From: a virus
Length of the DNA: 35,471 bases
Direction: 5' to 3' (one strand)
Virus record (IMG/VR): IMGVR_UViG_3300048591_001657
Span: 1-35,471 of that record
In this document: one piece after another, positions 7,325 to 31,417 of the stretch
Position numbering within the stretch: position 1 is the first letter of the stretch
Layout: every line of letters starts with the position of its first letter
Position numbers and translations under genes: made by a program
The notes under the pieces: model-generated
Told to the model about the DNA's origin: nothing
Seen by the model: the letters and a program-made list of their open reading frames with translations, nothing else
The model's database searches: none

Positions 7325-7328
7325 TTCA

Positions 7329-7817: not shown

Positions 7818-7871
7818 AGCAAAAAGGGCGGGCTTTTATACCCGCCCCTAACAATTGAGTGAATGAAAACT

Positions 7872-8048
7872 TTATTCTGTGTTGGCTGAGCCGTCCTGAT
7901 CAGTACCGGAAACCTGCTTTTTGCATGCATCATAAGCCTCGCGAAGCTTTTTCTTCGTCAAACCATGATGCTTATGCTCCTCGCAGAACTGCTCAAAGGT
8001 GACGCCGGCCGCCCACGACTCATTGAAATTGATTCCTTCGAATACCAT
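7872..8048 (-). CDS. Small hypothetical protein (58 residues)
   Basis: ATG at 8048-8046, TAA at 7874-7872. The product begins MVFEGINFNESWAAGV and ends GSANTE. It is mainly helical with clusters of His and Lys (EEHKHHGLTKKKLRE). It fills the otherwise empty space between the tail tube gene and the 162-residue gene, in the same orientation. A reading frame of this length with normal composition, in a gap of just this size, is good evidence for a gene. The helix plus basic patch after a short acidic start might be a small DNA- or protein-binding fold, but I recognise no family. Confidence 0.65.
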   Translation of the reverse strand: MVFEGINFNESWAAGVTFEQFCEEHKHHGLTKKKLREAYDACKKQVSGTDQDGSANTE

Positions 8049-8110
8049 TTGTCAAGTTTTAACGTGATTGAATTTCAGTTTGCAAGTCGAGGCTGAAACT
8101 CAAAACCGCT

Positions 8111-9082: not shown

Positions 9083-9100
9083 GAGCTGAGTATTGTTGGG

Positions 9101-9679
9101 TTAACAAGTCTTGTTTGGGTTATAGAGTAGGGTTAGATTCACTCGAAAACAGTGCACAGGCTGTAAGTCAACATTTTTCAAACCTTGATCACGGAGGGAA
9201 CCGGGATATTCTCTCAACACATTCTCAATGCCGGTTTCAACGCTGGTTATACGGAATCCGAAAAATCCATACTGCCCAATAACATTCACCACTGAGCGCC
9301 TGAATTCCTCATCGCCCCGATAATCAATCTCCTCACCTATACCGTTCTTCAGCGCCAGTTTGCTGAGATTGCCGAAAAACACAAGGTGTATGTCCTGGCG
9401 AAACGATAGGCCCTCAGTTTGAGCTTGAAAGCCGATACCAAAAAACGACACGACGCTCAGGTTGTCATCCCAGTAGAGATCCTTTGAGTATTCGTTTTGT
9501 CCGTTATACACCTCCGCCACATACCCGTCCTCTCTTCGATTTCGGTAGCAACGACCGTGACAATGATACTGATCAGCATCTGCCAACCCCCACGCTGCAA
9601 TCAACTTGGAATGCATGTGTCGCTGCAACTTGGAAATATACCAGTCAACGCCGGTCGGATTAGCTTTCTGAATCAGCAT
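9101..9679 (-). CDS. Putative tail completion or terminator-type protein
   Basis: 192 residues, mixed alpha/beta with many aromatic residues (FFGIGFQAQ, YGFFGFRITSVETGIENV). The stretch YHCHGRCYRNRRE near residues 38-50 is rich in Cys, His and Arg and might bind metal, but no defined finger is present. It overlaps the preceding gene by 7 bases. Its size and its position just before the tail tube gene match head-tail connector, tail completion or tail terminator proteins of siphoviruses. This is an inference from gene order only. Confidence 0.6.
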   Translation of the reverse strand: MLIQKANPTGVDWYISKLQRHMHSKLIAAWGLADADQYHCHGRCYRNRREDGYVAEVYNGQNEYSKDLYWDDNLSVVSFFGIGFQAQTEGLSFRQDIHLVFFGNLSKLALKNGIGEEIDYRGDEEFRRSVVNVIGQYGFFGFRITSVETGIENVLREYPGSLRDQGLKNVDLQPVHCFRVNLTLLYNPNKTC

Positions 9680-10722
9680 AGTATCACTGTTTTCGCTTTG
9701 GGTTTCGGGTAAAACGCTTCCCGAACTCGGGCCGCTTCTTTCTCAAACCGTTGACGTAATCCAAAAATGTGCGGGGCATCAGTGATCGGAACGGTACCAG
9801 ACAAATCCAGCATCAGACCAAATTGATCAATGTTGTGTTTTATCTGGCGCTCATCCTTGTTTGAACGTTGGCTGTAAAGAATTGCCTCGGCAACCTGGCA
9901 GGCCATTGCCAACCCCAAAAGATTATCGAACAGCCATGGCTGATTGACGATATTCTGCGTATGATCCACAAAACCTGAAACATGAAGATTCAAGCCAGCA
10001 GAATCACCGCGAATACCCACCTCATTTCGTTCGAATGTGGTCGCACCGGTTGCCACTGCATCTATCGAATCCGCGCCGAATACAAGTGTCCGATTCCAGC
10101 AAACTTGTTCCTGAATAGCCTTACCGCCGGCAAGATCATCCTGGAAATACACGATATAAAAAACCGTTCCCTCTTTTCGGGAGAGAAACCAATCATCAAG
10201 CTGAATAGTCGTTTTTTGATTGGCAACGCTCGTAACAGAGGCGGTCTTTATTGCTGCTGAATTCCCGGCAGCGAACAGATACAAATTGAAAGTAGCTGCT
10301 GAGTCGAGGTAGAAGGTCGCGGTATTGATCCGGACCGTGTGCCCTCCTTTTGATGCCAGCCGAATCCTGTAGCCGATCGCCCTGCCTGGTAAGTCAAGCG
10401 TCTGCTCATCCTCAGTGATGCGATCATAAAGATGAACCTGCTCTATTGCCTCATTGATGTTAAAAACAGTATTCAGACAACGAGCAATGACTGCCTGTTG
10501 AAGCGTCGTAAACGCGGTGTTCCATGCAGCAGAATCCTGCTGAGCCGGGAAAACGGACTTTATATTCGCAACAGATACGACCGAATGAAAACTTCCGTCA
10601 TCAAACTTGCGACCGCTTTTGCTTGTCTTGTTCTCGGTGCTTAAAGTTGATTCAGACCAACCCAGCCTTCCGAACAAAGCAGTAGTTGCCGCAGTAAGAT
10701 CGTATCCGTTTGAATAAGCCAT
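9673..10722 (-). CDS. Hypothetical structural protein of the head-tail region
   Basis: 349 residues from the ATG at 10722 (MAYSNGYDLTAATTALFG). A GTG two codons further upstream is possible but less likely. Residues about 120-240 have a beta-sandwich-like pattern (TATFYLDSAATFNLYLFA, IVYFQDDLAGG). The remainder is more helical, and the C-terminus ends EAFYPKPKAKTVILC. Lacking a signal peptide, it probably acts in the cytoplasm or in the virion. It lies between capsid and tail tube genes, so a connector, adaptor or decoration function is possible. I do not recognise the family. Confidence 0.7.
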   Translation of the reverse strand: MAYSNGYDLTAATTALFGRLGWSESTLSTENKTSKSGRKFDDGSFHSVVSVANIKSVFPAQQDSAAWNTAFTTLQQAVIARCLNTVFNINEAIEQVHLYDRITEDEQTLDLPGRAIGYRIRLASKGGHTVRINTATFYLDSAATFNLYLFAAGNSAAIKTASVTSVANQKTTIQLDDWFLSRKEGTVFYIVYFQDDLAGGKAIQEQVCWNRTLVFGADSIDAVATGATTFERNEVGIRGDSAGLNLHVSGFVDHTQNIVNQPWLFDNLLGLAMACQVAEAILYSQRSNKDERQIKHNIDQFGLMLDLSGTVPITDAPHIFGLRQRFEKEAARVREAFYPKPKAKTVILC

Positions 10723-10751
10723 ATGCACTTATGTCAAAGAACATTTATTGA

Positions 10752-11165
10752 TCAGTCGTGCTTTTTGACCACGTACCAGACCTTTAATTGGGCATTCATG
10801 GTACCGGACCCGACAGCCTGAATGCCGTACTGTGTGCCACCGGGTGCGCCTCGGGTAAATAGCGTGGTATTAATAGCTGTGTTCAAACTGGTAACGGAGT
10901 CAAGCCGCACCCAGTTCGTCCCATCGAGGCGAGCTACCAGGTAAATCTTACCGGCAACCGTGCCATCGATTTTCGTTAACACAGGCTGCATTGCTACGAC
11001 CGAGTAACCTGCAGTAACCGGGATGTACTTGGTCACAGTCCCGGTGTTGGAGACGGTATCACCTGCCACCAACGAAAGCTGCCTGGCATTTTGGGCCTGC
11101 GCCACAAAAGAGGCGCAGGCGACCAAAACGACTGAGAGCAGCATACCAAAAAACTTACTTTTCAT
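10752..11165 (-). CDS. Signal-peptide protein in the head module
   Basis: 137 residues. A classical signal peptide is visible: basic start (MKSKFFG), hydrophobic core (MLLSVVLVACASF) and an AQA site near residue 25, so signal peptidase I would release about 112 residues into the periplasm. The Cys in VACAS does not make a convincing lipobox at that spacing. The mature part is Thr/Val/Gly-rich and beta-like (TKIDGTVAGKIYLVARLDGT), resembling a small structural or carbohydrate-facing domain. An exported product between the capsid gene and the connector genes is unexpected for a virion assembly protein. It may modify the host surface, or be a decoration-like domain that acquired a leader. Confidence 0.8.
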   Translation of the reverse strand: MKSKFFGMLLSVVLVACASFVAQAQNARQLSLVAGDTVSNTGTVTKYIPVTAGYSVVAMQPVLTKIDGTVAGKIYLVARLDGTNWVRLDSVTSLNTAINTTLFTRGAPGGTQYGIQAVGSGTMNAQLKVWYVVKKHD

Positions 11166-11228
11166 ATCGTGATATGAGGGTAAAAAAATCTGTTTAGGGA
11201 ATCAACTGAAAGCGGGCTCAACTATCAC

Positions 11229-12248
11229 TTACGACAGTTGAGAAGCCTGAATAATCACGCTATCCGTCCGGTTGGTTGTGTAATCCAGAGGAGCTTTGTT
11301 CAGACTGGTGTCCAATGAAAGCTCAAACTGCATCAACACGTCCTGAGTGTCACCATTCGAACCGCTCGTATCGGCCCGCTCTGCATATCCATGCAGCGCG
11401 AACAGCAATCCACGGTAACGGAATACACCATAACCACCCAAAACAGACATGTAATCGCCAAATCCAACGCGGTTCTGCTTCGGAATCCAGTTCAGTGCAG
11501 CCACAGATCCCTGAGGCATCACCAAAACAGAACCCTCAGAATAGTTGGCATCGCTCAGATCCAACGACTCGGCAATGTTCATGTTATTGAACTGGAAGCC
11601 GTAGTTCGTGGCATTCCCGCCACCCTGTGCGCCAAGAAACTCAGCATTCACCTGCATGAGGCTATCAGCAACTACATCCAACATGCCGCCGAAATAGTTT
11701 TGACGGGCTACTGAACGAAGACGCTGGAAAAACTGCTTTTGGTCGGCAGCCGCGATTTCAACAGCATCATTGGCCGCGCTGAAGGACGCTCCCTTCAGAG
11801 TGGGCTGTTGAGTTGCGCGTTGCGCACGCAGGTAAGCAACCGCTTCAGTTTCTTTGTCTTCCAGGATGTTCATGCAACATTGTTCCAACTTGTTAGCCAG
11901 TACAGTATTGAAGTCGAAAACAGACTTATCCAGAAGTTTAAGGCTGATGGAGGTTTTGTCGGACTTGGTAGTCCATGCCAGTGTTACCTTTTGCGAATCA
12001 TCGATCGTCCCCGTGTGGTTATGGGTACGAGTGCTGCCTGATGCACGCTTTGTACGACTCAACAAATGAGCCTCAATTGGGCGATCATCGCGGGTTTTCA
12101 ACTGCTCTGCTGCCTGAATAAGGAAATTATCATTCCCTGACAGCATGGCAAAAACCGGCGTAGGCTGTAAGCGCATTTCGGGCGCTTTATACTTGTCCGA
12201 CACCATGGTTTGTGCAGTGACCAGGTTGGACACATCAAAATTTGCCAT
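11229..12248 (-). CDS. Major capsid protein
   Basis: 339 residues from the ATG at 12248 (MANFDVSNLVTAQTMV). The frame is open to 12371, but the upstream part has only a TTG start and consists of leader repeats, so I treat it as untranslated. The protein has the features of an HK97-fold capsid: a helical N-terminal arm, a central region with long amphipathic helices (residues about 90-190, including FDFNTVLANKLEQCCMNI), and Gly/Asn-rich loops near 220-290. It directly follows the scaffold gene and a terminator, the canonical place of the capsid gene. No prohead protease gene is seen upstream, so maturation cleavage is uncertain. Confidence 0.85.
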   Translation of the reverse strand: MANFDVSNLVTAQTMVSDKYKAPEMRLQPTPVFAMLSGNDNFLIQAAEQLKTRDDRPIEAHLLSRTKRASGSTRTHNHTGTIDDSQKVTLAWTTKSDKTSISLKLLDKSVFDFNTVLANKLEQCCMNILEDKETEAVAYLRAQRATQQPTLKGASFSAANDAVEIAAADQKQFFQRLRSVARQNYFGGMLDVVADSLMQVNAEFLGAQGGGNATNYGFQFNNMNIAESLDLSDANYSEGSVLVMPQGSVAALNWIPKQNRVGFGDYMSVLGGYGVFRYRGLLFALHGYAERADTSGSNGDTQDVLMQFELSLDTSLNKAPLDYTTNRTDSVIIQASQLS

Positions 12249-12276
12249 TTGATTAAAAAGAGAATTGCGAGAGTTT

Positions 12277-12369
12277 TTGGAGCAACCGCCCCGGATACTT
12301 GCAGCTACCGCCGCTATAGACTTGGAGCAACCGCCCCGGTGTGACTTGCCGCTATACCCAGCAACCGCC
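12277..12369 (-). repeat. Repeat-bearing leader of the capsid gene
   Basis: An 18-base segment, TTGGAGCAACCGCCCCGG on the plus strand, occurs at 12277-12294 and 12322-12339, and its core AGCAACCGCC again at 12360-12369. The sequence between the copies is also related (CTTGC...GCCGCTATA after each). On the transcribed strand each full copy can fold into GGGGC-GGTT-GCTCC, a 5-pair stem (one G-U) with a tetraloop. The repeats end 28 bases upstream of the capsid ATG. They probably act in the mRNA, as a stability or translation element, but no function is proven. Confidence 0.6.
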
Positions 12370-12371
12370 AA

Positions 12372-12480
12372 AGCATAACAACAACCCGAAGATAGGAAAA
12401 AATTTGAATCTCAAAATATTTTTTCTGAAATTTCAATTTTAAGTGAAATTTATTGCTCATTTAAACTCTCCTCCCATGCA
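12372..12480. other. AT-rich spacer upstream of capsid leader
   Basis: About 110 bases of strongly AT-rich sequence lie between the terminator and the repeat leader. A capsid promoter would be expected here because the terminator at 12492-12518 isolates the gene from the scaffold. On the minus strand I see only approximate -7 boxes (TATTTTG at 12418-12412, TAAAATTG at 12441-12434), neither with a TTTG at proper distance, so no promoter is called. Confidence 0.35.
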
Positions 12481-12491
12481 CTTGTAAAACA

Positions 12492-12518
12492 AAAAACCCG
12501 GCACTAAGCCGGGTTTTT
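12492..12518. terminator. Bidirectional rho-independent terminator after the scaffold gene
   Basis: Perfect inverted repeat: AAAAACCCGGC, loop ACTAA, GCCGGGTTTTT. The 6-bp GC stem is flanked by A and T runs, so it works in either direction. It starts 15 bases after the scaffold stop codon at 12534 and should separate scaffold from capsid transcription, at least in part. Confidence 0.9.
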
Positions 12519-12533
12519 CTCTTCTGTTCAACT

Positions 12534-13376
12534 TTAGGCATCAAACTTAAAGTCCTTGTTCGCAGCCGCTGCTTTCGACACTTCATTCTGAAACTCTTCG
12601 CCGAGTTCATTCTTTCCTTCCGCTTTAAACCGTTCGCGGATCTCGCTGAGTTTCGTGTAACCGCCTGTAGGAGGTGCGCCACTGCCACCACGGCCACCAG
12701 GAGGCACTCCTCCACCTTTATCTTCCGCTTTCCATCCCGTGCGCTCAGTAAAAATATCTCCTACCACATCCGAAACCTTACGAGGGTTCTGCGTGCCCTT
12801 CTCGCGGACCAATTCGCCATCCTTCTTTGCCTGGATCGATCCGTCCGCAGCACGCTCGAACGTGTAGTTCGCTTTAATCAGCGTCAGATACTCCTGATCT
12901 GTTAACGTGCTGGCACGTTCCTTTGGAAAGGCTGCCAGGATATCGCGATCGATTTCAACCGCAGAGGCCCGCTGCTTTTCCTGAACAATTGCCTGCTCTT
13001 TATCCTGCACCTCTCTTTGCAGCAGCTTTACCTGGTCGTCCAACTGCCTTACCTTTTCATCCACCTTGATACCGGCATCAGCCGTCGCTTTCTCTGCGAT
13101 GGCTTGCGCTAGTTTCCCCGGATCACGCGCCGGCGCATCTTCCGGAAGGCCCGCGGCTTTCTTCACTTCTTTCATTCCGATCTCCCGGCCTGCTTTCTCA
13201 CCCTCCTTTTTCATGTTCGCATCCCGGGTTGTCAACTCTTCCTCAGTTAAAACCTGCAGGTTGCCCGGTATTTCCAGATCAACCTCGTTCGCGTCTTTCA
13301 ACGCAGCATCGAAATCTGCTTCCTTTATTTTGAGCAGATCAGCTATTTTCTTTTTTACTTCCGCCTTCAGTGCCAT
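12534..13376 (-). CDS. Capsid scaffolding protein
   Basis: 280 residues from the ATG at 13376 (MALKAEVKKKIADLL); an in-frame upstream ATG at 13397 would add seven residues. It is highly charged and helical, with a long coiled coil at about residues 100-145 (KVRQLDDQVKLLQREVQDKE), a Gly/Pro-rich hinge near 220-240 (GGGVPPGGRGGSGAPPTGG) and a basic, helical C-terminal segment that in such proteins binds the capsid subunit. Size, composition and its place immediately before the capsid gene match phage scaffolds. The first part overlaps the end of the preceding gene by 38 bases. Confidence 0.85.
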   Translation of the reverse strand: MALKAEVKKKIADLLKIKEADFDAALKDANEVDLEIPGNLQVLTEEELTTRDANMKKEGEKAGREIGMKEVKKAAGLPEDAPARDPGKLAQAIAEKATADAGIKVDEKVRQLDDQVKLLQREVQDKEQAIVQEKQRASAVEIDRDILAAFPKERASTLTDQEYLTLIKANYTFERAADGSIQAKKDGELVREKGTQNPRKVSDVVGDIFTERTGWKAEDKGGGVPPGGRGGSGAPPTGGYTKLSEIRERFKAEGKNELGEEFQNEVSKAAAANKDFKFDA

Positions 13377-13662
13377 TTTGGTCAATTGATTGTTCAATAA
13401 ATGGGGTTTCGGTCGTTATCAGCATGGGGTGAAACTTGTGGCCAAACAACATCTGACGGTAGTATAAGCGACGATTTTTGACAATCTGCTCAATTTCTTC
13501 GTCAGACAATTCAAAACATGCTATCATCGAATTGATGATCTGCACATCTTCGCCATCTTCATTCTTTACTATTCTGGCCTCTGCATGAACATGCAGCGTT
13601 TCGTACTCATCCTGATGTTCGGCGAGCTTACAGTTCGCCTGTGGAAATGTGACTGATTTCAT
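13339..13662 (-). CDS. Hypothetical protein of the head module
   Basis: 107 residues. Starts MKSVTFPQANCKLAEHQDEY, with a beta-like N-terminal half containing HVHAEARIVKNEDGE and a helical acidic segment (ELSDEEIEQIVKNRR). The ATG coincides with the end of the previous gene (shared base 13662), and its tail overlaps the scaffold start by 38 bases, so it is translationally embedded in the operon. No family recognised. Perhaps a small head assembly factor by position. Confidence 0.7.
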   Translation of the reverse strand: MKSVTFPQANCKLAEHQDEYETLHVHAEARIVKNEDGEDVQIINSMIACFELSDEEIEQIVKNRRLYYRQMLFGHKFHPMLITTETPFIEQSIDQNGTEGGSKKENS

Positions 13663-13961
13663 CAGCTACTTTTTTTTTCGAAATCAACGTCAAAAAGAAA
13701 TAATGGCGCCGCTTGTTTGACTTTTTGTTTGGTCTGGGAGTAGAACTCGCGAAGCAGTTTCTCAAAATCCGCTTTATCAAGCATGCAATACAGTTCAACT
13801 CCGTTCGCGAACCCAATAATTACGCCTCCGCGACGGGCTTCGAAGTAATACGCAATCAGGCTCGGGTCAACAACAGCCTTGACAATTTTCTCATTTTCGC
13901 TGATTCCGTTCCGATCGGTACCCGCAGCGAGTACCGTCGGAATGGTTAAGAATGTCTTCAT
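13662..13961 (-). CDS. Hypothetical protein of the head module
   Basis: 99 residues, starting MKTFLTIPTVLAAGTDRNG. The N-terminus is mildly hydrophobic but not a convincing signal peptide. The middle (YYFEARRGGVIIGFANGVELYCM) reads as a beta-hairpin pair, followed by a helix (DKADFEKLLREFYSQTKQK) and an end rich in Phe and Lys. It overlaps the upstream gene by ATGA and shares one base with the next gene. Function unknown. Confidence 0.7.
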   Translation of the reverse strand: MKTFLTIPTVLAAGTDRNGISENEKIVKAVVDPSLIAYYFEARRGGVIIGFANGVELYCMLDKADFEKLLREFYSQTKQKVKQAAPLFLFDVDFEKKSS

Positions 13962-14392
13962 CGGCCAGGCACTTCGCCCGTTTTGAAGTAATACGAGCCG
14001 TTTTTGTTGCCGCCGGTCAACATACCATTGTTAAGCGTCTCGGCCTCTTCCTTGGTGATCTTCACTACTGGGCGGACAACTCGAATCGGGTCGGCCTTAC
14101 CTCGCGAAAAATCGCAATGCCACTCCTCGTAGTGATCAGCCCCCTTTTTGGCGCCAGGCTTAGCTTTGCCTTCTTTCTGATCACCCTCGTTCGCACCGGG
14201 TTTCGCGCCTTTTTTCGCCTTGCTTTCTTCACCCTCGTTCGCACCATCACCATACAACTGATCCAACACCTTTTCCAAATCCTTGCCTTCTACACCTTCC
14301 GCTTCCAAGAGCTCAGAAAGCTCCTCACGGCTGGTTTCTTTTGCAGTCGGTTGGTATTTTTCAACCAACTCTTTTAATTGTTTCTGTGTCAT
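13958..14392 (-). CDS. Hypothetical protein with Lys/Gly/Ala linker repeats
   Basis: 144 residues in three parts: an acidic helical N-terminus (residues 1-50), a low-complexity linker of about 40 residues with the repeated unit KKGAKPGANEG and variants, and a compact C-terminal part (DHYEEWHCDFSRGKADPIRVVRP onward). The linker suggests two separately folded ends joined flexibly. It ends in an ATGA overlap with the next gene. It lies among small genes between portal and scaffold. No known family was recognised. Confidence 0.7.
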   Translation of the reverse strand: MTQKQLKELVEKYQPTAKETSREELSELLEAEGVEGKDLEKVLDQLYGDGANEGEESKAKKGAKPGANEGDQKEGKAKPGAKKGADHYEEWHCDFSRGKADPIRVVRPVVKITKEEAETLNNGMLTGGNKNGSYYFKTGEVPGR

Positions 14393-14425
14393 TCTGACTA
14401 TTTTTTTCTATCCAGAGAGCCAATT

Positions 14426-14626
14426 TTATTGCCACACATTCCGCGTCCATCGTCCAATAGCACGATCAAACCCCACTAAAATCTCCGTGTATAACTGGAT
14501 CCGTTCCGCTACCCACAGACCTGTAAAGCCAATACGCTCGTCAGCCGGCATGGATTGATACCATGCTCTATAAAATTTGAGCTTATGGCCTACTATTTTG
14601 ATCCTCTGTCTTTTTCCACCACTCAT
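14426..14626 (-). CDS. Small basic hypothetical protein
   Basis: 66 residues starting MSGGKRQRIKIVGHKLKFY, strongly basic in the first third and aromatic throughout (RAWYQSMPADERIGFTGLW). The first 44 bases overlap the end of the preceding gene, and there is a 33-base gap before the next. The sequence is not obviously membranous. Short Trp-rich helices like this occur in phage head genes of unknown role; nothing more can be said. Confidence 0.6.
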   Translation of the reverse strand: MSGGKRQRIKIVGHKLKFYRAWYQSMPADERIGFTGLWVAERIQLYTEILVGFDRAIGRWTRNVWQ

Positions 14627-14864
14627 TTAATCGCTTTTCAAATTCTTCGATAGATAACTCTATTTTACTGGAATCGCCATTTCGCATGATCAAACAGACG
14701 CCTTCCCGATCGTCCTCATCGTTGATGTCTTCGAAGTACTGTCTGATATCAAACACCAGTACTCTCATCTCGACATCGTGATAACTCCTTACGCCCGTAA
14801 GATTTTCCTGCTTAGTAGAGTAAATCCGAATGGGCAGCAATATGAATCGATCGGTAAAACTCAT
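14583..14864 (-). CDS. Hypothetical protein following the portal gene
   Basis: 93 residues. N-terminal half is beta-like (FILLPIRIYS, MRVLVFDIRQYF), with an acidic segment EDINDEDDREG in the middle and a helical basic end. It overlaps the portal stop by ATGA at 14864-14861. The position just after the portal gene would suit a small head protein, but there is no motif to support a specific role. Confidence 0.65.
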   Translation of the reverse strand: MSFTDRFILLPIRIYSTKQENLTGVRSYHDVEMRVLVFDIRQYFEDINDEDDREGVCLIMRNGDSSKIELSIEEFEKRLNEWWKKTEDQNSRP

Positions 14865-16555
14865 GCAGGTTGCGGTATCGGTTTTGGTTCAAGTGGTTTT
14901 TTGTCTGCAACAAAAGCTTTCAACTGGTTTTTCAACTCCTCTACACTGTATACCAGCAACATTGCATCGTTGACCAGCGCAAGCCATTCAGAGAAATATA
15001 GCTTACACAAATAATCGGTCGGGTCTGCATCCAAGGCCTTCAACTGCTGCACTGTCATATGCACGAACGGCTCTACATACATCAGCTTTTGAGCAATCGC
15101 CAGGGCCATCGGATCGCTCTGATAGTTCGATTCATAATACTCCGAAAGCAGCGTATCAAGCACGTTCTGCGGCGCCCCTTTCGTACGAGCGTTGGAATAC
15201 TTTTCCCAAATCGCATCCGCACCCTCGATCATGTAACGCCGGCCGTACGAGAGATTGCACCCGCCGTAGTTGTTATTGACCTGTACCAGTATCAGAAGAT
15301 CCAGGATAAACTTCTCGCGGCGCTCCGCTGCTTCGCTAATCGGCAACAACCGGTCACTCTGTGGCTTCAATTCATCTACAATCTCAGTAGCCGTCTTAAT
15401 GTCACCGTTCCCATTTGCAGACATACCCGCCGTCTTTAATCTCGACGGTGTACCCCAAACCGTGACACTCATGGCATTTTCCAAATCCAGCATCTCACCG
15501 GCAGAAATCTCGAAATACGTTTTATCAGGGCTGATGTACGCCGCCACCTGGTCGGGCGTAATCACCGGCTCATCCTTTTCCGGATAAATCAAAAGCTTCA
15601 TCGACGACGGAGTTACCATAGCCATCCGGCCGCTACCCTTACAGGAAGGGCAATCCTCTCCCTCCACCAACATACTCCCGTTACACGTAGGACACATATC
15701 GGCAAACTCAGCATATTTCGGGAAACCATGCATGAACTTGTGCACCCGTTTGATCGAGCCATCCAACAAAAAATCGTCTGCCAGTCCGATGATATCATCA
15801 AACAGGGAGACGAACACCTTTTTACCCTCAGGATCCTGAAAGTCTGAATTTGAAATGGCCGGGACCTTCCTAAAAATATTTGGATAGGTATGCTGTTGAA
15901 CAATTTCAACGCTCTGATCGTGGCGCCTGACGATGTAGTCATACGCATCGTCAATCACCCGGTACAAATCTGCATTATCATCAAAACCATAAGAAGCATT
16001 TTGCCGCTTGTCTACGGCAACCGCCAGGTATTCACAAATTGTTCCGTTGAATAGATAGTCGTAAACCTGTTTTGATCGGAGGTATACCGGGAAAACAAAA
16101 CTTCGATTTTGCTGTTTTGCCAAAATAGCCTCTCTCTGTGGCAATATTTCAACCAGAATCAACCCTGCAGGATCATCAAGAAAGTGAGGGCGCCAATGAA
16201 CCTCCATCCACTTCCTTAAAGACATGCCGCCCACAAGACTATCGGCAAGTCTTCTTGCTTGCTTTTCCTGCGACTCAGCAAGGTTGTAATAAATGCTCCC
16301 ACCTTTGGCCGAAAATACTTTGTCGATCGGGCGGGAAAGCCGGGAAAACAAATCCTTATTGCTCCTCGCATATTTGGCCCGGGCGTCGCGGATCTCCTGT
16401 TTTTCAAACCCGGGAATCTTCGTTAGCGAAGTCTCCAAGCCATCGCCATACATGTGCTTACGCAGCAGATCATTGTACTCCCGGGCCGACCTTACCTTAT
16501 CTCGGTTGGGATTTTCAATGATCACCTTCGTCAATTGCTCGGAACTTAGTATCAT
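14861..16555 (-). CDS. Portal protein with an embedded CxxC zinc-knuckle pair
   Basis: 564 residues following the large terminase after a 9-base gap. Position, length and the tunnel-forming helical architecture expected of phage portals support this. Residues about 287-309 contain CPTCNG and, ten residues on, CPSCKGSG, a DnaJ-type CxxCxG pair that should bind one zinc ion, inserted between a helical segment (IKRVHKFMHGFP) and a beta-like one. The C-terminus is Pro-rich (LEPKPIPQPA). The portal is the dodecameric ring through which DNA enters the head and to which terminase docks. Assignment rests mainly on order; the sequence is not obviously of the SPP1 or HK97 portal type. Confidence 0.82.
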   Translation of the reverse strand: MILSSEQLTKVIIENPNRDKVRSAREYNDLLRKHMYGDGLETSLTKIPGFEKQEIRDARAKYARSNKDLFSRLSRPIDKVFSAKGGSIYYNLAESQEKQARRLADSLVGGMSLRKWMEVHWRPHFLDDPAGLILVEILPQREAILAKQQNRSFVFPVYLRSKQVYDYLFNGTICEYLAVAVDKRQNASYGFDDNADLYRVIDDAYDYIVRRHDQSVEIVQQHTYPNIFRKVPAISNSDFQDPEGKKVFVSLFDDIIGLADDFLLDGSIKRVHKFMHGFPKYAEFADMCPTCNGSMLVEGEDCPSCKGSGRMAMVTPSSMKLLIYPEKDEPVITPDQVAAYISPDKTYFEISAGEMLDLENAMSVTVWGTPSRLKTAGMSANGNGDIKTATEIVDELKPQSDRLLPISEAAERREKFILDLLILVQVNNNYGGCNLSYGRRYMIEGADAIWEKYSNARTKGAPQNVLDTLLSEYYESNYQSDPMALAIAQKLMYVEPFVHMTVQQLKALDADPTDYLCKLYFSEWLALVNDAMLLVYSVEELKNQLKAFVADKKPLEPKPIPQPA

Positions 16556-16564
16556 GGTTGTTGA

Positions 16565-18082
16565 TTATGCAGCTTGTGAACCCCGCCGCTTGCCGCGGGC
16601 CTTGTAAATGTTGAATTCACGCTTCAACACGGTACAAATCAAATAACGCTTCGTGTCGGTAAAGTGACCATACTGCTCATACGTTATACCCGACTCCTTA
16701 TCTTTCACCTTCTGTTTCAACACGCGACCGTCCATATCTTCTTTGGTCATCGTGTAATCCTCAATAGATTTTCTGTTGTTCGAACCGATCAAAATAGACC
16801 AACCCTCAAAATTGGATTCATATATCTCATTGATGAACGAACCGCTCATCGCAACTTCCGGCGCTGATTTCTCAATCCTGCTCAAAAAGCGAACCTTCTC
16901 TGTCTTCAACACCAGTTTGAACTTGTCGAAAAAACTTCGCCCGTCATCATCCGTCGTACTCTTTGCATTCGCTGAAGGATCACCATAAATAAAAACGATC
17001 TCCTCGTGAGCCACCCGGTCTAACCATCGCACAAACTGCTTTGCAGCCTTCACAGCTGTATTATCCGGCGAAACACATGGCAACTCTGCCACCTGAATAA
17101 ATCGCTTCGCTTCCCGGTCAATCTGCCACATGGCGAGCGTAACATAAGGATGCACGTTATTGTCAATCGTAACATGCACCGGCAGTTTGGGATTGAAGGC
17201 CACCAAACCGGTGTGTATCCCTTCATCAAAGCTTTTCCAGAAACTGCCCCCTGTCTTCTTGAACCCCCACAGACCCAACGTATAAGTTTGGTACCAATAC
17301 GAATTATTCTTACTGCCCTTGTAGCTCTCATACAGCGCAATCCGCTGAGGTGAACAATACGGATTGTCCTTGTACGTCGAATGTGTCGCGCGGATGTACA
17401 GCATCATATACACCTGCGTACCGCCCGACTCATCGTTGACAACCTTCACATTGCCAGGATACTTCCCATCAGGATAGCGTTTCAATGTTTCGACGGGTAC
17501 CGGGATTTCCTTCACCCACTCCCAACTGAGTTTCTCTGTGTGCGAGAAATATTCCTGCCACAGCCAGAACTCCGTATAAGTTTTGTCGCACTCCGGATTG
17601 AACGTGAACCAGGTTTTTACCCTGACCTTCGCCCGTAAGCTCGTCAGGATCACCACAAAATCCGTCGAATCAATCTGGTTGCCCTCTTCTACCCAACAAT
17701 GACTGGGGTTGTTGAATGATTTGATTTTGCCCACATCGTCCAACCCCCTGCCGTAGAAGCCATTCTTATTGGCCTTGCAAATGATCTCCATCCGGCTTTC
17801 GTTTACCCGGAATAAATGACTGATCCCCCACTCATCAATAACCGATTTGATCAGGTCAAATTGCGAGCCGCGCACTGTATCCAATACCTTCCTGATCAGC
17901 AGACATTTAAAGTAACCCGGGCGCATGCAATCAATTACCAACTGCATCGCCACATGCCGGCTCTTACCGGAATCCCGGCCTCCATACAGAAAATCTATAT
18001 CAAAGAACTGCGACTCGTCGATTAAATGACGATAGCATTCAAGAAACACATCCTCATCTATATCAACATTAATTCTCGCCAT
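16565..18082 (-). CDS. terL: Terminase large subunit
   Basis: 505 residues. ATPase domain: Walker A GGRDSGKS at 34-41, Walker B HCWVEE at 128-133 with catalytic Glu, coupling motif TFNP at 160-163. Nuclease domain: acidic residues D307 (TIDNN), D368 (YGDPS) and D476 (GHFTDTKRY), the three-carboxylate pattern of the RNase H-like fold. TerL pumps DNA through the portal and cuts the concatemer. Its start shares one base with the terS stop at 18082. It reads as a complete, intact phage terminase. Confidence 0.95.
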   Translation of the reverse strand: MARINVDIDEDVFLECYRHLIDESQFFDIDFLYGGRDSGKSRHVAMQLVIDCMRPGYFKCLLIRKVLDTVRGSQFDLIKSVIDEWGISHLFRVNESRMEIICKANKNGFYGRGLDDVGKIKSFNNPSHCWVEEGNQIDSTDFVVILTSLRAKVRVKTWFTFNPECDKTYTEFWLWQEYFSHTEKLSWEWVKEIPVPVETLKRYPDGKYPGNVKVVNDESGGTQVYMMLYIRATHSTYKDNPYCSPQRIALYESYKGSKNNSYWYQTYTLGLWGFKKTGGSFWKSFDEGIHTGLVAFNPKLPVHVTIDNNVHPYVTLAMWQIDREAKRFIQVAELPCVSPDNTAVKAAKQFVRWLDRVAHEEIVFIYGDPSANAKSTTDDDGRSFFDKFKLVLKTEKVRFLSRIEKSAPEVAMSGSFINEIYESNFEGWSILIGSNNRKSIEDYTMTKEDMDGRVLKQKVKDKESGITYEQYGHFTDTKRYLICTVLKREFNIYKARGKRRGSQAA

Positions 18083-18585
18083 TAATTACTCCCGCCACTC
18101 CTGGTTATTCGAACGTTCAGGCCTTCGCCTTCATCGTCATCGAAAACACCTAAATGCTTCGCGAGCATTTCGAGAGCGCGTATCTTGTCGTAGCGACGGA
18201 CCTTCCGCACAACAGTAATCACCTTTCCGTCCTCCTGCTTTTCCTCCGTCGTATCAATACCTGAAATCGTCGCAGCAGTGTCAGGATCCATTTGGTGCAA
18301 ACTCTTTAAGGAGCCATCCTCATTATAGGCGCCCCTCAGAGAGGTAAAGGCCAGGCGGCTTATCTCAAAAACAACCCGCTCCTGCGTAACACCTGCAGCA
18401 GCAGCGCGCAATTTGAAAAGCTCTTGAATCTTTTTTTGGACTAGAGGTTTCTGTAGCAACTGATAAGCGAGACTGGAAGCGTTTGCCTTAGTGTAACCGG
18501 CGCGCATAGCTGCCTGAGTTCCATTGAAATCAACAATGTACTCATTACAAAACAACAACTGTTTCGGGTTAAGCTCTTTGGACAT
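18082..18585 (-). CDS. terS: Terminase small subunit
   Basis: 167 residues of the Terminase_2 type: N-terminal MSKELNPKQLLFCNEYIVDFNG with the typical helix-turn-helix that follows (TQAAMRAGYTKANASSLAYQLL), then a helical oligomerisation region and a C-terminal acidic segment (GVFDDDEGEG). It recognises the packaging site and recruits TerL. It is the first gene of the late block, 17 bases after a well-placed -7 box. The stop overlaps the TerL start by one base. Confidence 0.93.
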   Translation of the reverse strand: MSKELNPKQLLFCNEYIVDFNGTQAAMRAGYTKANASSLAYQLLQKPLVQKKIQELFKLRAAAAGVTQERVVFEISRLAFTSLRGAYNEDGSLKSLHQMDPDTAATISGIDTTEEKQEDGKVITVVRKVRRYDKIRALEMLAKHLGVFDDDEGEGLNVRITRSGGSN

Positions 18586-18601
18586 ACATCTCTGTGCTGT
18601 T

Positions 18602-18633
18602 CAAAAGTAAGACGAAAAATACAAGTTTTCAAC
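18602..18633 (-). promoter_or_regulatory. Putative late promoter upstream of terS
   Basis: On the minus strand, TACTTTTG at 18609-18602 fits the Bacteroidota -7 consensus TAnnTTTG exactly, and GTTG at 18633-18630 sits 20 bases upstream in place of TTTG (three of four match). The box ends 17 bases before the terS ATG, so the leader would be about ten bases. It could drive the packaging, head and tail genes. Spacing and sequence are read directly; activity is inferred. Confidence 0.6.
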
Positions 18634-18650
18634 TATTTCTGAACTTTCGA

Positions 18651-18662
18651 TTTCACGTGAAA
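18651..18662. promoter_or_regulatory. 12-bp palindrome at the putative late promoter
   Basis: TTTCACGTGAAA is a perfect palindrome lying 17 bases upstream of the -33-like element, around position -60. This is where an activator could sit. No regulator for it is identified in the window. Confidence 0.4.
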
Positions 18663-18868
18663 CACTTGAATTAAATGATACACCCTTAATGGGCATCAAT
18701 TGTCCAAAAGAATTTTCTCAAAAAACGGTGAAATCGCTGTGAAAAACTCCTGAAATCCGGTGTGGTGGCTAATTTCAGAAGACATACCGCTTCTTTTCCA
18801 CAGTCTGTTAATATTACTGGGTTGGAATATATTAAATGTCGAAATAAATTCGTGGAAGACGTTAAATT

Positions 18869-18958
18869 AGTAAGCCCGGAAGGGGGTTTCTCAAAAGCCG
18901 TAAAGTAATGCCCTGCAAGGCATCATGTACAGGCCCACTCCCCCTTCCGGGCTTTACT
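18869..18958. ncRNA. Long stem-loop, possible structured RNA
   Basis: Arms AGTAAGCCCGGAAGGGGG (18869-18886) and CCCCCTTCCGGGCTTTACT (18940-18958) pair over 18 bases with a single bulge. The 53-base interior holds a second stem, ATGCC/GGCAT, with a six-base loop at 18908-18923. In the minus direction the RNA would lie about 280 bases before terS. It could be a stable small RNA, an untranslated leader, a transcription attenuator, or a packaging recognition element. It lacks a clear terminator T-run. Strand is undetermined because the fold is nearly symmetric. Confidence 0.45.
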
Positions 18959-18972
18959 TTGTAGACGATAAA

Positions 18973-19006
18973 TATACAAAGTGTATAGTAACTTTGTTAT
19001 CACAAA
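18973..19006. promoter_or_regulatory. Two adjacent inverted repeats in the control region
   Basis: TATACA-AAG-TGTATA at 18973-18987 is a perfect inverted repeat, followed at 18993-19006 by TTTGT-TATC-ACAAA. Plus-strand TAACTTTG between them fits TAnnTTTG but has no TTTG at the right distance and no gene downstream on that strand. They are candidate operators. The rest of the 478-base gap, apart from the promoter, palindrome and stem-loop listed separately, shows no gene. Confidence 0.35.
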
Positions 19007-19063
19007 TTAACTGCAACGTTTCGCTTCGCCCCCTATTAATTACTAACAGGTTGGGGAAAACAT

Positions 19064-19339
19064 TCAAGTTATTTTCGAAACAATCACAATCGTCTCATTA
19101 TTAATTCTTTCAGACTGCCCTTCCACCTCATTCCAACAATCCCTAACACATCGGCCGTAGCGTTGGGGACCTACGCCGGCATAGGTCATTGTGCTGTAAA
19201 GTGTTTTGCGCCCTCGCAATGTAAACTGAACTCCAAAAGGTAATTCACCCAGTCGGTAATTACCTCCTATTTCAATTTCATCGCTTCTGAGCACGCGCCC
19301 GTGCCAGCGACCGTCTGCAGGTTTGGTGTATCGCTTCAT
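19064..19339 (-). CDS. Hypothetical protein
   Basis: 91 residues starting MKRYTKPADGRWHGRVLRSDE, basic and rich in Gly, Arg and Tyr. It reads as a small beta-barrel (IEIGGNYRLGELPFGVQFTLRG), ending in the hydrophobic INNETIVIVSKIT. It is the last gene of the early block before the long control region and follows the next upstream gene after 9 bases. No family recognised. Perhaps an accessory host-directed protein. Confidence 0.65.
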   Translation of the reverse strand: MKRYTKPADGRWHGRVLRSDEIEIGGNYRLGELPFGVQFTLRGRKTLYSTMTYAGVGPQRYGRCVRDCWNEVEGQSERINNETIVIVSKIT

Positions 19340-19348
19340 AAGAATATT

Positions 19349-19726
19349 TTAAAAGAGCCTGGTACAATAACGGAAACCTTGAAAGCCCTTCAGCACTCTC
19401 TTGTATGGACATTTTTCAAACGGACCTGATAGTATCACAAAAGGCTTATCCATGAGTTTTTGCCGGCCCGTTGCACCAAAACCTACTATATCAGCATCCT
19501 GGTTACGGCGAAAGCCGCCGCAGTATACCCGCCCATAGAGTCTGTTAGCCACGATAATGTAAATGTGGTCGATATCCGTTTTCGGAAAGTTTGATATCGT
19601 GTGCATCCAGTAGTTACCTGCTTCATGTCCCGCCATGGTTTCCTGGAATGCCTTCAAAAAAGTTCTCAATCCGCCTTGTTCACTTATCATTTGCTTACCG
19701 AACGTCACGACAATGCCCTCAGGCAT
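19349..19726 (-). CDS. Hypothetical protein, start revised by overlapping microgene
   Basis: 125 residues from the ATG at 19726 (MPEGIVVTFGKQMISEQGG). An ATG 13 codons upstream at 19765 is open, but would put 47 bases of the preceding microgene inside this gene. Using 19726 gives an 8-base overlap, in keeping with the ATGA-type junctions of this operon. The protein has mixed beta/alpha character with Tyr- and Phe-rich stretches (DHIYIIVANRLYGRVYCGGFRR) and a C-terminus with Gly/Phe (FEKCPYKRVLKGFQGFRYC). It slightly resembles the small PUA/ASCH-like nucleic-acid-binding folds, but I do not assign a family. Confidence 0.65.
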   Translation of the reverse strand: MPEGIVVTFGKQMISEQGGLRTFLKAFQETMAGHEAGNYWMHTISNFPKTDIDHIYIIVANRLYGRVYCGGFRRNQDADIVGFGATGRQKLMDKPFVILSGPFEKCPYKRVLKGFQGFRYCTRLF

Positions 19727-19892
19727 AATTGATTGATCTTTCGAATACCCCCTTTCTGTAATCATGGCTATCTGAATTGCGGTAAATACGGTTGTTTTCT
19801 ACGATATTAAATGATACATTGGCTTCAGCTTCCTTTTTGATAAGGTTATAGTAGTAAGTCCGCTTCAGTCTTGTTGCGGGCTCTTTTCTCAT
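19719..19892 (-). CDS. Basic microprotein, 57 residues
   Basis: ATG at 19892-19890 overlaps the stop of the upstream gene as ATGA (19892-19889), and TGA is at 19721-19719. The product, starting MRKEPATRLKRTYYYNLIKK, is basic and tyrosine-rich, with no membrane segment. Two short overlaps, 4 bases at its start and 8 bases at its end if the next gene begins at 19726, make it fit the operon perfectly. I recognise no family; the Arg/Lys-rich first half suggests a nucleic-acid binding role, but that is speculative. Confidence 0.6.
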   Translation of the reverse strand: MRKEPATRLKRTYYYNLIKKEAEANVSFNIVENNRIYRNSDSHDYRKGVFERSINYA

Positions 19893-20224
19893 TTTTTGGG
19901 ATGTGCAAAGGAATTATCACGGCCCGCCGTTATCCGTTCCTGAATTTTATATCGGACAACTACATATCCTTTTCCCTGCATAAATATTTGTGGCGTGCCG
20001 TAATCTTGTTTCGGGCTTTCCCGAATTCTATACCTCACAGCACGATAACCAATCCAGTTCAGATATGCAGTGTCGAAAATGTTGACTTTATTTACCGACC
20101 AATCAGTTTTATAGTATACCGCCCTTACATCGATGGACAGCTTTTTACCCCTAGGCGGGCTGAATTCACGTATCAAAAACGACGCTACAGCACAAACGGT
20201 TAATGCCAGGAAAATGAGTTTCAT
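19889..20224 (-). CDS. Membrane-anchored or secreted hypothetical protein
   Basis: 111 residues. A hydrophobic N-terminus (MKLIFLALTVCAVASFLI) acts as a signal peptide or anchor, followed directly by REFSPPRGKKL. No obvious signal peptidase I site follows, so it is more likely an N-terminal anchor with the rest outside the inner membrane. The remainder is beta-like and rich in Tyr, Val and Arg. Its tail overlaps the next microgene as ATGA. The opposite-strand frame over 19871-20203 is a shadow. Possibly an envelope-acting moron. Confidence 0.7.
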   Translation of the reverse strand: MKLIFLALTVCAVASFLIREFSPPRGKKLSIDVRAVYYKTDWSVNKVNIFDTAYLNWIGYRAVRYRIRESPKQDYGTPQIFMQGKGYVVVRYKIQERITAGRDNSFAHPKK

Positions 20225-20229
20225 GTTGT

Positions 20230-21189
20230 TTATTTTTGATTAATTTGTTGCACTATCCAGTCGTACATTTCAGTCATATAATCACGTGCGCCAACGGCAA
20301 ACATGTCATCGCCGGGATATGAACCGTTTGCCCACTCTATCGCCCGCTCCCTTGTTGGGAAGGGGGATTCATTGGATGGTATTAACTTTAATAAGTCTTC
20401 CAGTTCGTGCCTTCTTTCTATTAGAAAGTTGCTGGTATCTCTTGCGACACGACGCTTAAATTCAGGTTGCGTCATATCCCAACGTTCTTTACATACTTCG
20501 GCGTCTGTTTTTTTAAGATAGGAAATCCGCTTTTCAATCTCTTCCCTGACCCAACTTACGCCGATTGTAGGCGCGGTTTGGGATTTTGCCTTGCCTGCTG
20601 CATTAATCACTTCTTTTAATAAACCATCTTCCTGTGCCAAAACTTTATCGAACCATTCCTCGTGCTGCCTCCTTTGCGCCCTATAGATCGCGCGAGCTCC
20701 GGGCCTTCCTACCGATGCGCCATAGCCAACGACTACTCTTTCAGGGGTATTTTGTACGTTCGATAACGGTGCATGGCCGTGGGCTGACGGGTATTCCTGC
20801 CCTTGCTGCTTACGGCCCTCTGTAAATCCGGTTTGGTAGATTTTGTAAAGAGGAATCTGAAAATGATGGTAAATGAAGTCATTCGAGATATTTACATCCG
20901 AGAAATTGTAGCTAATCTCGTCGTCCATATCAAACCACTTCACATCAAATCCTTCGTCTGATGCCCCGGTAACAGTACCGCTAATAATAGTTCCGTCTTC
21001 GTTAAAGGTTCGGACAATCTCCCCTTGCGCCGGGGCGGGTGGTTCAGCCGTATAAGCACTCAAGGCTTTCCGCGCAATATCTCCAAACTGTTGAGGTTTA
21101 AATGGAGGGTCGGCTACATCATCGTATGCGTCGATAGACTGAAGTGCGTCAATTAATATCTGCACTTTCTGTTGATCTTGTTGGGTCAT
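20230..21189 (-). CDS. Multidomain hypothetical protein of the early block
   Basis: 319 residues. The first 50 residues are helical, then comes a small beta domain of about 70 residues (GEIVRTFNEDGTIISGTVTG, VKWFDMDDEISYNFSDVN), a linker, a helical basic region at about 150-240 and an acidic-aromatic C-terminal segment (AVGARDYMTEMYDWIVQQ). It overlaps the upstream gene as ATGA at 21189-21186. The small beta part resembles a chromo- or SH3-like barrel, which would bind a peptide or nucleic acid, but this is a guess. No family recognised. Confidence 0.65.
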   Translation of the reverse strand: MTQQDQQKVQILIDALQSIDAYDDVADPPFKPQQFGDIARKALSAYTAEPPAPAQGEIVRTFNEDGTIISGTVTGASDEGFDVKWFDMDDEISYNFSDVNISNDFIYHHFQIPLYKIYQTGFTEGRKQQGQEYPSAHGHAPLSNVQNTPERVVVGYGASVGRPGARAIYRAQRRQHEEWFDKVLAQEDGLLKEVINAAGKAKSQTAPTIGVSWVREEIEKRISYLKKTDAEVCKERWDMTQPEFKRRVARDTSNFLIERRHELEDLLKLIPSNESPFPTRERAIEWANGSYPGDDMFAVGARDYMTEMYDWIVQQINQK

Positions 21190-21440
21190 AGGGCGTTGTT
21201 TTTATTGATTGGGTTCCATTTATTCCAAGCCGCCACCACGCTATCAGCGGTGTCCGTGATTTTGTTGCAATCTTCATGCTCGCATATAGCTACGAAATGC
21301 ACGTCCTTTCTGCGGCCGGCAACGATTTTCTGAATCTTAGGCAGACATCTGTGAACGATGCACGGGTTCAGTTGGCCCTCATACAAGTGATTCAGCGATT
21401 CACGGCTATGCGTTTTTAATTGAAATTGAATGACGCTCAT
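21186..21440 (-). CDS. Lar-like zinc-finger protein
   Basis: 84 residues from the ATG at 21440, which has AAGGAG five bases upstream. A GTG at 21446, overlapping the previous stop as GTGA, is the alternative. The end has the pattern of phage restriction-alleviation (Lar-like) small zinc proteins: a CEHEDCNK motif, then about ten residues to AVAAWNKW; the first half contains CIVHRC. In Lar families, two Cys pairs bind zinc and a final AWN motif is typical. Such proteins reduce host type I restriction. The resemblance is moderate. Confidence 0.5.
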   Translation of the reverse strand: MSVIQFQLKTHSRESLNHLYEGQLNPCIVHRCLPKIQKIVAGRRKDVHFVAICEHEDCNKITDTADSVVAAWNKWNPINKNNAL

Positions 21441-21442
21441 GC

Positions 21443-21652
21443 TCACTCCTTTTCTTTTAAAAGCAATTGTACTGATAACGGCGATTTGTAATTCAGTATT
21501 CTCATTATATCACGAATACTAAACCCTTCTTTTCGCAAAACATGCGCATATTGTTTACGCCTATTTATCAGGCTTGCAGGCATTTTTTTCGGTGCTGATA
21601 TTTTCCCTCGACCTTTACAAATTGGGCATTTTATGTTGTCGTGTTGGGTCAT
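21443..21652 (-). CDS. Zinc knuckle plus helix-turn-helix microprotein
   Basis: 69 residues. Residues 9-16 are CPICKGRG, a single DnaJ-type CxxCxGxG half-finger. Residues about 25-65 form a helical segment (QYAHVLRKEGFSIRDIMRIL) that reads like a resolvase-type helix-turn-helix, followed by a basic end. It overlaps the preceding gene as ATGA and abuts the next. Two such chains could complete a zinc site in a dimer. It may be a small DNA-binding regulator. Confidence 0.6.
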   Translation of the reverse strand: MTQHDNIKCPICKGRGKISAPKKMPASLINRRKQYAHVLRKEGFSIRDIMRILNYKSPLSVQLLLKEKE

Positions 21653-21951
21653 GAGTTATCGTTTGTGCCCGTAGGGGCGGTGGTGTTTGGGTAATTGTAT
21701 TTTTTCTTTAACTCTTTAACCATTTTTCTGACATCACCATATTTCATATTTCTGTAAGAAGCATACCGCTTAATAAATTCCTCTGTTTTGCAAAATGGGC
21801 ACGGGAAATCATCCCCTTGCTCATAAAGCATTCCATTTCCATCACACTTATCCAAATCATATAATTTCCCATCAATGCAAGTAGCGTCGGGATAACTTGC
21901 ACCAAAAAACGGAAACTCGGGGCATCCATTTATATTTTCAACTGCTTCCAT
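21649..21951 (-). CDS. Hypothetical CxxC protein
   Basis: 100 residues with Cys at about residue 10, CID in the middle, and DFPCPFCKTEEFIKRY at 48-63, whose CPFC pair may bind zinc with earlier cysteines (C10, C25, C36). The C-terminus is basic and helical, with a Thr/Asn-rich tail. The ATG is 2 bases after the stop of the upstream gene, and its stop overlaps the next gene as ATGA. Likely a small metal-binding early protein of unknown role. Confidence 0.65.
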   Translation of the reverse strand: MEAVENINGCPEFPFFGASYPDATCIDGKLYDLDKCDGNGMLYEQGDDFPCPFCKTEEFIKRYASYRNMKYGDVRKMVKELKKKYNYPNTTAPTGTNDNS

Positions 21952-21953
21952 AT

Positions 21954-22289
21954 TTATTTATCGCCCATCTGGGCCAGTTTGGTTAGTAATCCGTTTGCAA
22001 GCTGCCTTGATCCGTTACAATTTGATACCTGTGCAATAGCCGTCAAGGTGCCTTTAATTTCCATTAGCAAATCATGCGGCACTGGTCGCGTCCCTTCCGG
22101 CAGCGGGCGCAGGTAAACAGCATCTTCAAACTCGTCAGGTAAATCAAGCCATCTACCGTTCTGAAATGTATGTGGGTATATTACCCTGTGTGAACATCTC
22201 CTGTATATTAAATCGTAAGTACCGTTTTCTAGCCCCTCCGTCTCGGTGATAGGGGTCAGAGCGTACAGGGGTAAGGTGTGTTTGCTCAT
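21954..22289 (-). CDS. Hypothetical protein
   Basis: 111 residues starting MSKHTLPLYALTPITETEG. The middle (DLIYRRCSHRVIYPHTFQNG) is beta-like, and the C-terminal third helical (LMEIKGTLTAIAQVSNCNGS). No signal peptide or metal motif. It overlaps the preceding microgene as ATGA at 22289-22286. The family is not recognised. As part of a chain of short early genes it may be an accessory host-takeover protein. Confidence 0.65.
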   Translation of the reverse strand: MSKHTLPLYALTPITETEGLENGTYDLIYRRCSHRVIYPHTFQNGRWLDLPDEFEDAVYLRPLPEGTRPVPHDLLMEIKGTLTAIAQVSNCNGSRQLANGLLTKLAQMGDK

Positions 22290-22393
22290 GGTTTATGTTT
22301 AAAGTAGTGTTTGCAAATAAGAAAGCCAGCAATGATGCCGATTCCAATACCTTGAATGAACCAATAAATCATTATCATTACCTCTCTATCCAT
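22286..22393 (-). CDS. 35-residue single-pass membrane microprotein
   Basis: Too short for a usual length cutoff. ATG at 22393-22391, TGA at 22288-22286, overlapping the next ATG as ATGA. The product is a 7-residue polar start (MDREVMI), a hydrophobic core of about 20 residues (MIYWFIQGIGIGIIAGFLI) and a basic end (KHYFKHKP). The positive-inside rule puts the C-terminus in the cytoplasm. It is preceded by one copy of the repeated GC-rich spacer. Candidates are holin-like, regulatory or superinfection-exclusion roles; none can be shown. Confidence 0.6.
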   Translation of the reverse strand: MDREVMIMIYWFIQGIGIGIIAGFLICKHYFKHKP

Positions 22394-23077: not shown

Positions 23078-23105
23078 ACCATTACCCCGGCACGGGGGGG
23101 GTTAC
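23078..23105. repeat. GC-rich intergenic spacer repeat, copy C
   Basis: ACCATTACCCCGGCACGGGG, then GGGGTTAC. It contains a run of eight G on the plus strand and has the same ACCATTACCCCGGCA opening as copy B. It lies between the 125-residue gene and the 104-residue gene, again beginning at the upstream stop codon. Confidence 0.7.
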
Positions 23106-23479
23106 ATTTCGGGTGATACATGTTGAATATTGATGCCGGGGTAATAAGCCAAACAATCCTCGGTAGGATCGCAACAGTTATCAATCAGAATGTCAGCGGC
23201 CCAAAACACACGTCGCCATGAAGTTGAAGCAGCCTGGAATTTCCTTACCAAAAATTCATACATCAAAGCCCGGTTATCTACTTCGTCGCTTTCATCTTCC
23301 TGCAGTTCCTTTTTGATTTTCAGGATTAGCTGCTTATCCTCATCTTCGTCGTCTAAGTCTTCCCAATTATCCTCTGGGGCAATAAAAGAATATCTCGCTC
23401 TCTCCAATGACATTTCCGCTGCATTCATAAATGCCTGAACAGCGTCCAAATCTTCACGATCTGCTTTAGCTAATTTCAT
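23102..23479 (-). CDS. Acidic hypothetical protein
   Basis: 125 residues with many Asp/Glu, including EDNWEDLDDEDEDKQ, in an otherwise helical chain, ending in a Cys-containing segment (NCCDPTEDCLAYYPG). Its ATG at 23479 overlaps the true frame end of the zinc-finger gene as ATGA. Highly acidic early phage proteins sometimes mimic DNA or bind basic host proteins; nothing here proves that. No family recognised. Confidence 0.65.
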   Translation of the reverse strand: MKLAKADREDLDAVQAFMNAAEMSLERARYSFIAPEDNWEDLDDEDEDKQLILKIKKELQEDESDEVDNRALMYEFLVRKFQAASTSWRRVFWAADILIDNCCDPTEDCLAYYPGINIQHVSPEM

Positions 23480-23586
23480 CCCTTACCTCCTTTTTCTGTG
23501 TGGATTCTTTCTGCAATAACTGCTTCGGCTTCACCAGGATGCTTTTTCTTCATGTGTTCAGCCAGGTTCTGAAACGTTCGATTTCA
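23476..23586 (-). other. In-frame continuation beyond TGA completing a C2H2-type finger
   Basis: Reading through the TGA gives 35 further codons: NRTFQNLAEHMKKKHP, then a helical tail to the final TGA at 23478-23476. That stop overlaps the next ATG as ATGA. The retained pattern (C, two residues, the TGA position, then H-x4-H) means this was a functional frame very recently or is still read. It is either a nonsense change, a base error, or recoding. Other genes here use TGA as a normal stop, which argues against wholesale reassignment. Confidence 0.7.
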
Positions 23587-23949
23587 ACACGGGCAAACGC
23601 CAGCATAAACCCGACGCAACTTGTTTTTCGCTTTTGCTGCCTGTATCTTCTGGCCAATGGCCAAACGCTTTTCCCTGTCAGCCTCTTCCTGCCAGTATCT
23701 TATCCGATTATTCTTACGCTCGATTTCTTCCTGTTTTTGCTCAAGCTCCTTTTTCAGTTTCTCGACCTTTGAAACACTGTAGCATTGGTGATGCCCATTA
23801 GGACAATAAAATCCTGTCCCCTGCTCTAAAAAATTGCGTCGAAGATTATGAGGAACACCGAAAGGCACCCCGCAACTAAAGCACACAATTACTTCCATGT
23901 GTACCATTGAATCGTATTTAATGCCTTCCGCGTTGAGAATTGTAGACAT
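23584..23949 (-). CDS. Zinc-finger coiled-coil protein, stopped inside its second finger
   Basis: 121 residues to the TGA at 23586-23584. An N-terminal zinc site (CFSCG, then CPNGHHQC), a coiled coil at about 62-105 (KVEKLKKELEQKQEEIERK), and an end RVYAGVCPC. In the phage family it resembles, the chain continues as CPCC followed by an aromatic and a HxxxxH pair, a second finger. Here the second CxxC Cys codon is TGA. The next 35 codons are open, as described in the separate entry. The first part is intact, so the short form may be partly functional or the gene may be damaged. Confidence 0.8.
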   Translation of the reverse strand: MSTILNAEGIKYDSMVHMEVIVCFSCGVPFGVPHNLRRNFLEQGTGFYCPNGHHQCYSVSKVEKLKKELEQKQEEIERKNNRIRYWQEEADREKRLAIGQKIQAAKAKNKLRRVYAGVCPC

Positions 23950-31085: not shown

Positions 31086-31345
31086 AGCTGAAGTTTTTAA
31101 AATGTGCCGGTTGTCGTACCGGCGAACGGGCGCTTCCTGCTGGTGTTCGGCTTAAAGGCATTGCTGCCCGTAGGTACTTACTCTCGCCTTCATAGTAGAT
31201 TTCGTTGTGCCACCAACTACTTTCGCCTCAGGCTACCCTGAACCGCCATTTATTCGATTAAAGAACTTGTTTTAAAGTGTGCCGGTCTTTTTCACCCGGC
31301 CTTTCGCAATCGAATCACTGTTGGAAATAACCGTCCTTAGTGTTG
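31086..31345. other. Hairpin-rich non-coding segment
   Basis: No convincing gene. Perfect or near-perfect hairpins: GCCGGT-TGTCGT-ACCGGC (31106-31123), TCAGG-CTAC-CCTGA (31228-31241), GTTG-TGCCAC-CAAC with outer AGTAG/CTACT (31194-31221), and GCCGG/CCGGC (31281-31300). TTTAAAATGTGCCGGT at 31096 recurs with one mismatch at 31271. Together with the tRNA and tRNA-like element next door, it looks like the continuation of an RNA cluster on the minus strand. Confidence 0.5.

Positions 31346-31417
<72 letters not shown>

Follow-up and report, generated by a model that had tools for sequence, protein, structure and literature searches.

A putative zinc finger encoded in the early region of a phage genome is interrupted by an in-frame TGA, and the locus raises the question of whether this codon is a genuine nonsense mutation, an error in the sequence, or a recoded codon through which the finger is completed. 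The DNA analysed here (the window) is the whole 35,471 bp of the IMG/VR record IMGVR_UViG_3300048591_001657. The short reading frame ends with the residues ...RRVYAGVCPC and is followed directly by TGA (23586–23584, minus strand), beyond which there are 35 sense codons (translation NRTFQNLAEHMKKKHPGEAEAVIAERIHTEKGGKG) and then a second TGA at 23478–23476, which shares an ATGA junction with the start codon of the next gene (ATG, 23479–23477). The read-through product is 157 residues rather than the 121 of the short form, and it contains the motif C119-P-C-C122...H132-x4-H137, with the TGA at the second zinc cysteine; an intact C-x2-C...H-x4-H finger is present in the read-through frame only and is absent from the 121-residue product. 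The initial annotation had described 121 residues ending in CPC, the TGA, 35 further codons, the finger and the ATGA overlap, and on re-reading this description is exact. The features are as follows:

23587–23949, minus strand: part of the phrog_33336 gene that the short product retains, 121 codons, with its ATG at 23949 (the gene with its stop is 23584–23949)
23584–23586, minus strand: in-frame TGA where the relatives have TGC or TGT for the invariant zinc ligand C122
23476–23583, minus strand: remainder of the cut-off finger (NRTFQNLAEHMKKKHP, with H132 and H137) and the C-terminal tail, 35 codons plus a TGA stop
23102–23479, minus strand: next gene in the operon, 125 amino acids, without a family match, its ATG overlapping the ancestral stop (ATGA)

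An open run of 35 codons would be unremarkable by itself, and it is the sequence comparisons that indicate that its homology is not due to chance. Against the phrog_33336 profile the short form scores 49.4 bits and the long form 72.4 bits, and with the tail included the match spans positions 9–133 of the 136 in the profile, which places the gene in this family. With a family profile built from 193 non-redundant relatives, from which the window was left out, the scores are 110.7 bits and 152.9 bits for the short and long forms respectively, such that the tail adds 42 bits; when the tail was shuffled 1000 times the best score was 114.6 bits, and none came near 152.9.

Relatives in phrog_33336 are present in Gordonia and Mycobacterium phages (e.g. 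Gordonia phage CarolAnn gp64 and Mycobacterium prophage prophiGD08-3 gp13) and are phage proteins to which no function has been assigned. We collected relatives from viral contigs, retaining 80 of the 136 with a match, together with 39 bacterial genome contigs; the window gene has no close relatives among them, the best match having 45% identity. The window protein shares with the family, at about 30% identity, a CxxC...CPxGH zinc ribbon, a coiled coil, and a CPCCxRxFxNLxxHMxxxHP finger, but the known members have a cysteine at the TGA site, and most of them end 19–35 residues past that cysteine. In a set of 78 non-redundant finger-bearing relatives, assembled from phage matches and viral-contig loci without reference to the C122 codon, the residue is cysteine in every one (62 TGC and 16 TGT codons), and either codon is a single substitution away from TGA. 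Alignments A2 and A3 show C122 to be invariant, and the same holds for C119, H132 and H137; from this invariance we take C122 to provide the second ligand for the metal in a C2H2-like finger.

The N-terminal zinc ribbon has the ligands C23, C26, C49 and H53, and is followed by a long coiled-coil helix (residues 61–115). The read-through frame, modeled by AlphaFold with 59 relatives (mean pLDDT 91), shows the ribbon, the 61–115 helix, and a small finger that contains a helix at 129–136. No fold in a search with this model matched at E ≤ 0.001, and a profile search of solved structures gave weak zinc-finger matches alone (e.g. DBF4 and Ros). The gene sits among early-region genes and adjoins a DnaC-like helicase loader, and this position, together with the zinc modules, makes nucleic-acid binding a possible role. 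The homologue alignment called for by the initial annotation, which had also proposed that the long form is ancestral, bears this out: because all 78 finger-bearing relatives have the cysteine, C122 is invariant, and the read-through model is confident, the long form is the ancestral product.

The most probable explanation, and the one we favor with some confidence, is that the codon, which is covered by one assembly, is a recent and possibly strain-specific nonsense mutation, with the TGA read as a stop to give a 121-residue protein without the finger. A base substitution is needed because the frame is unbroken both before and after the TGA, and the event would be a TGC or TGT to TGA transversion in this early-region gene. 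If the UGA is read as a stop, the C-terminal C2H2-like finger would be lost from the product, while the zinc ribbon and the coiled coil would be retained. The nonsense change appears to be young, since the tail is undecayed. Finger loss is likely to be tolerable, because fingerless relatives occur naturally: four in bacterial genomes (L259, L261, L262 and L263) and one in a viral contig (L004) keep the zinc ribbon and end before the CPCC, and an intact finger is thus not a strict requirement for membership of the family. Sporadic lesions also occur in the family, as one relative (IMGVR_UViG_3300035698_011561, minus strand) has a frameshift ahead of its finger, which goes on in another frame. 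We infer that the phage itself has the TGA and that it tolerates the short protein. The locus resembles nonsense-interrupted phage genes generally, in which a single substitution creates a stop while the flanking frame and the homologues remain intact, and it differs from them in nothing other than that the stop lands on a cysteine codon.

The main rival is a base or consensus error, with the phage itself having TGC or TGT and making the full 157-residue protein; this is less likely than a real nonsense mutation, and we regard it as unlikely though deserving of consideration. The TGA is in a single record, the site is otherwise invariant, the tail behind it is undecayed, and one substitution suffices to explain it. 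Two sister assemblies from other samples bear on this. One (IMGVR_UViG_3300048590_001406) is 100% identical over window positions 1–18585 and ends 5 kb short of the TGA codon, and the other (IMGVR_UViG_3300048589_001130) is 100% identical over 15194–22315 and ends 1.3 kb short of it. That both end short of the site could reflect uneven coverage or a mixture of strains, which would favor an error; against this, there are no mismatches between the window and the two assemblies over positions 1–22315, which speaks for a low rate of base errors in the record. Moreover, the site has no homopolymer, and an indel error cannot yield the pattern seen. An exact-DNA scan for independent copies of the codon region, with the window's own record excluded, found none, and neither phage nucleotide searches nor a search with the neighboring helicase loader identified relatives. 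The first of the sister assemblies also runs approximately 13 kb past window position 1, in sequence with no match to the rest of the window, and we conclude from this extension that the window contains only part of the genome of the phage.

The other alternatives require that the UGA be decoded. The initial annotation had left recent nonsense mutation, base error and recoding as three options; the first two still stand, the former as the better one, and recoding finds no counterpart in a recurrent TGA, a SECIS, an RNA fold, or a suppressor or Sec tRNA, with TGA serving as a normal stop. Pattern scans over 2.9 million viral contigs for CPC-TGA in the family context gave no second genuine TGA at the site, whereas the corresponding TGY pattern was found in at least 120 stretches of the same collection. 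The two TGA scans gave one match each (L012 and L264), and both are due to chance, as their frames are closed by other stops and they are without family homology, and two further candidates for a second stop at the site were rejected, one having an N base there (L244) and the other being the frameshifted relative noted above (L031). TGA terminates 16 of the 44 listed genes in the window, several of them at ATGA or TGATG junctions, and UGA is therefore an ordinary stop here; a genome-wide reassignment of the code 4 type is ruled out by the same count. The RNA around the TGA does not fold above shuffled sequences at lengths of 52, 70 or 121 nt (z of 0.84, -0.63 and 0.95). An Rfam scan found no SECIS and had a tRNA as its sole match, and with ARAGORN and Rfam the window record contains no suppressor, Sec or UCA-anticodon tRNA, and only the following:

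31345–31417, minus strand: single tRNA-Met(CAT), in the integrase-proximal region, identified by ARAGORN and Rfam

Selenoprotein genes are recognized by a UGA common to some of the homologues, and none of the 78 non-redundant finger-bearing relatives has one. With no UGA-bearing homologue and no SECIS-like hairpin directly 3′ of the UGA, Sec insertion, which would also call for a host with selA, selB and selC, is unsupported. Programmed readthrough is likewise not indicated, as the stop is not conserved among the relatives and there is no stimulatory structure. Unregulated low-level readthrough of the UGA-A by a near-cognate tRNA (mainly tRNA-Trp), giving a little long protein with a faulty finger, has somewhat more to recommend it, in that no stop codon is leakier than UGA, tRNA-Trp of E. 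coli tends to misread UGA when an A comes next (PMC5289835), and the downstream frame is open. Tryptophan is no substitute for a zinc cysteine, however, and with neither a stimulatory structure nor any sign that the TGA is conserved we consider this explanation improbable. Programmed recoding, with Cys or Sec placed at the UGA either by a host selC* tRNA-Cys(UCA) and CysRS* or by SelB and a SECIS, is more improbable still. A conserved cysteine column turned UGA is the classic pattern of Sec/Cys exchange, as in selenoproteins with Cys homologues, and Desulfobacterales with opal selC* tRNA-Cys insert cysteine at Sec UGA codons (PMC7609411, PMC9437257); such decoding could be supplied by the host, and the tRNA scan covered the phage record alone. 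In contrast to those systems, the cysteine in question has no redox function but binds zinc as a structural ligand, a role in which Sec would be unusual, and the SECIS-like hairpin, the Sec or UCA-anticodon tRNA in the record, and the UGA in other family members are all missing. That the host would have an opal tRNA-Cys (or Sec) system and that the finger would be completed only by UGA decoding, tying its synthesis to the decoding state of the host, is the least probable of the scenarios we have entertained. Were the UGA recoded, the locus would offer a rare example of a stop codon through which a zinc ligand is provided, and no evidence here points there.

The ATG of the next gene lies at the ancestral stop. 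A sequence resembling a ribosome binding site is present within the tail:

23486–23492, minus strand: AAGGAGG Shine-Dalgarno-like motif, with a putative function in initiation of the next gene, 6 nt ahead of its ATG

Because it has this motif of its own, the next gene may not need ribosomes arriving from the tail, and the motif may keep it expressed without readthrough; with the finger gene truncated, the downstream gene is probably still translated. We note elsewhere in the window two open reading frames at 19349–19765 and 19064–19339 (minus strand) that lie in one frame, are parted only by a TAA and three codons, and have no family matches; they may be two neighboring genes or one further gene that is split.

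If the TGA is an ordinary nonsense mutation, as we favor, it matters for annotation only, with the gene truncated at 121 residues, and it would show that the conserved finger of an uncharacterized phage protein family can be lost.
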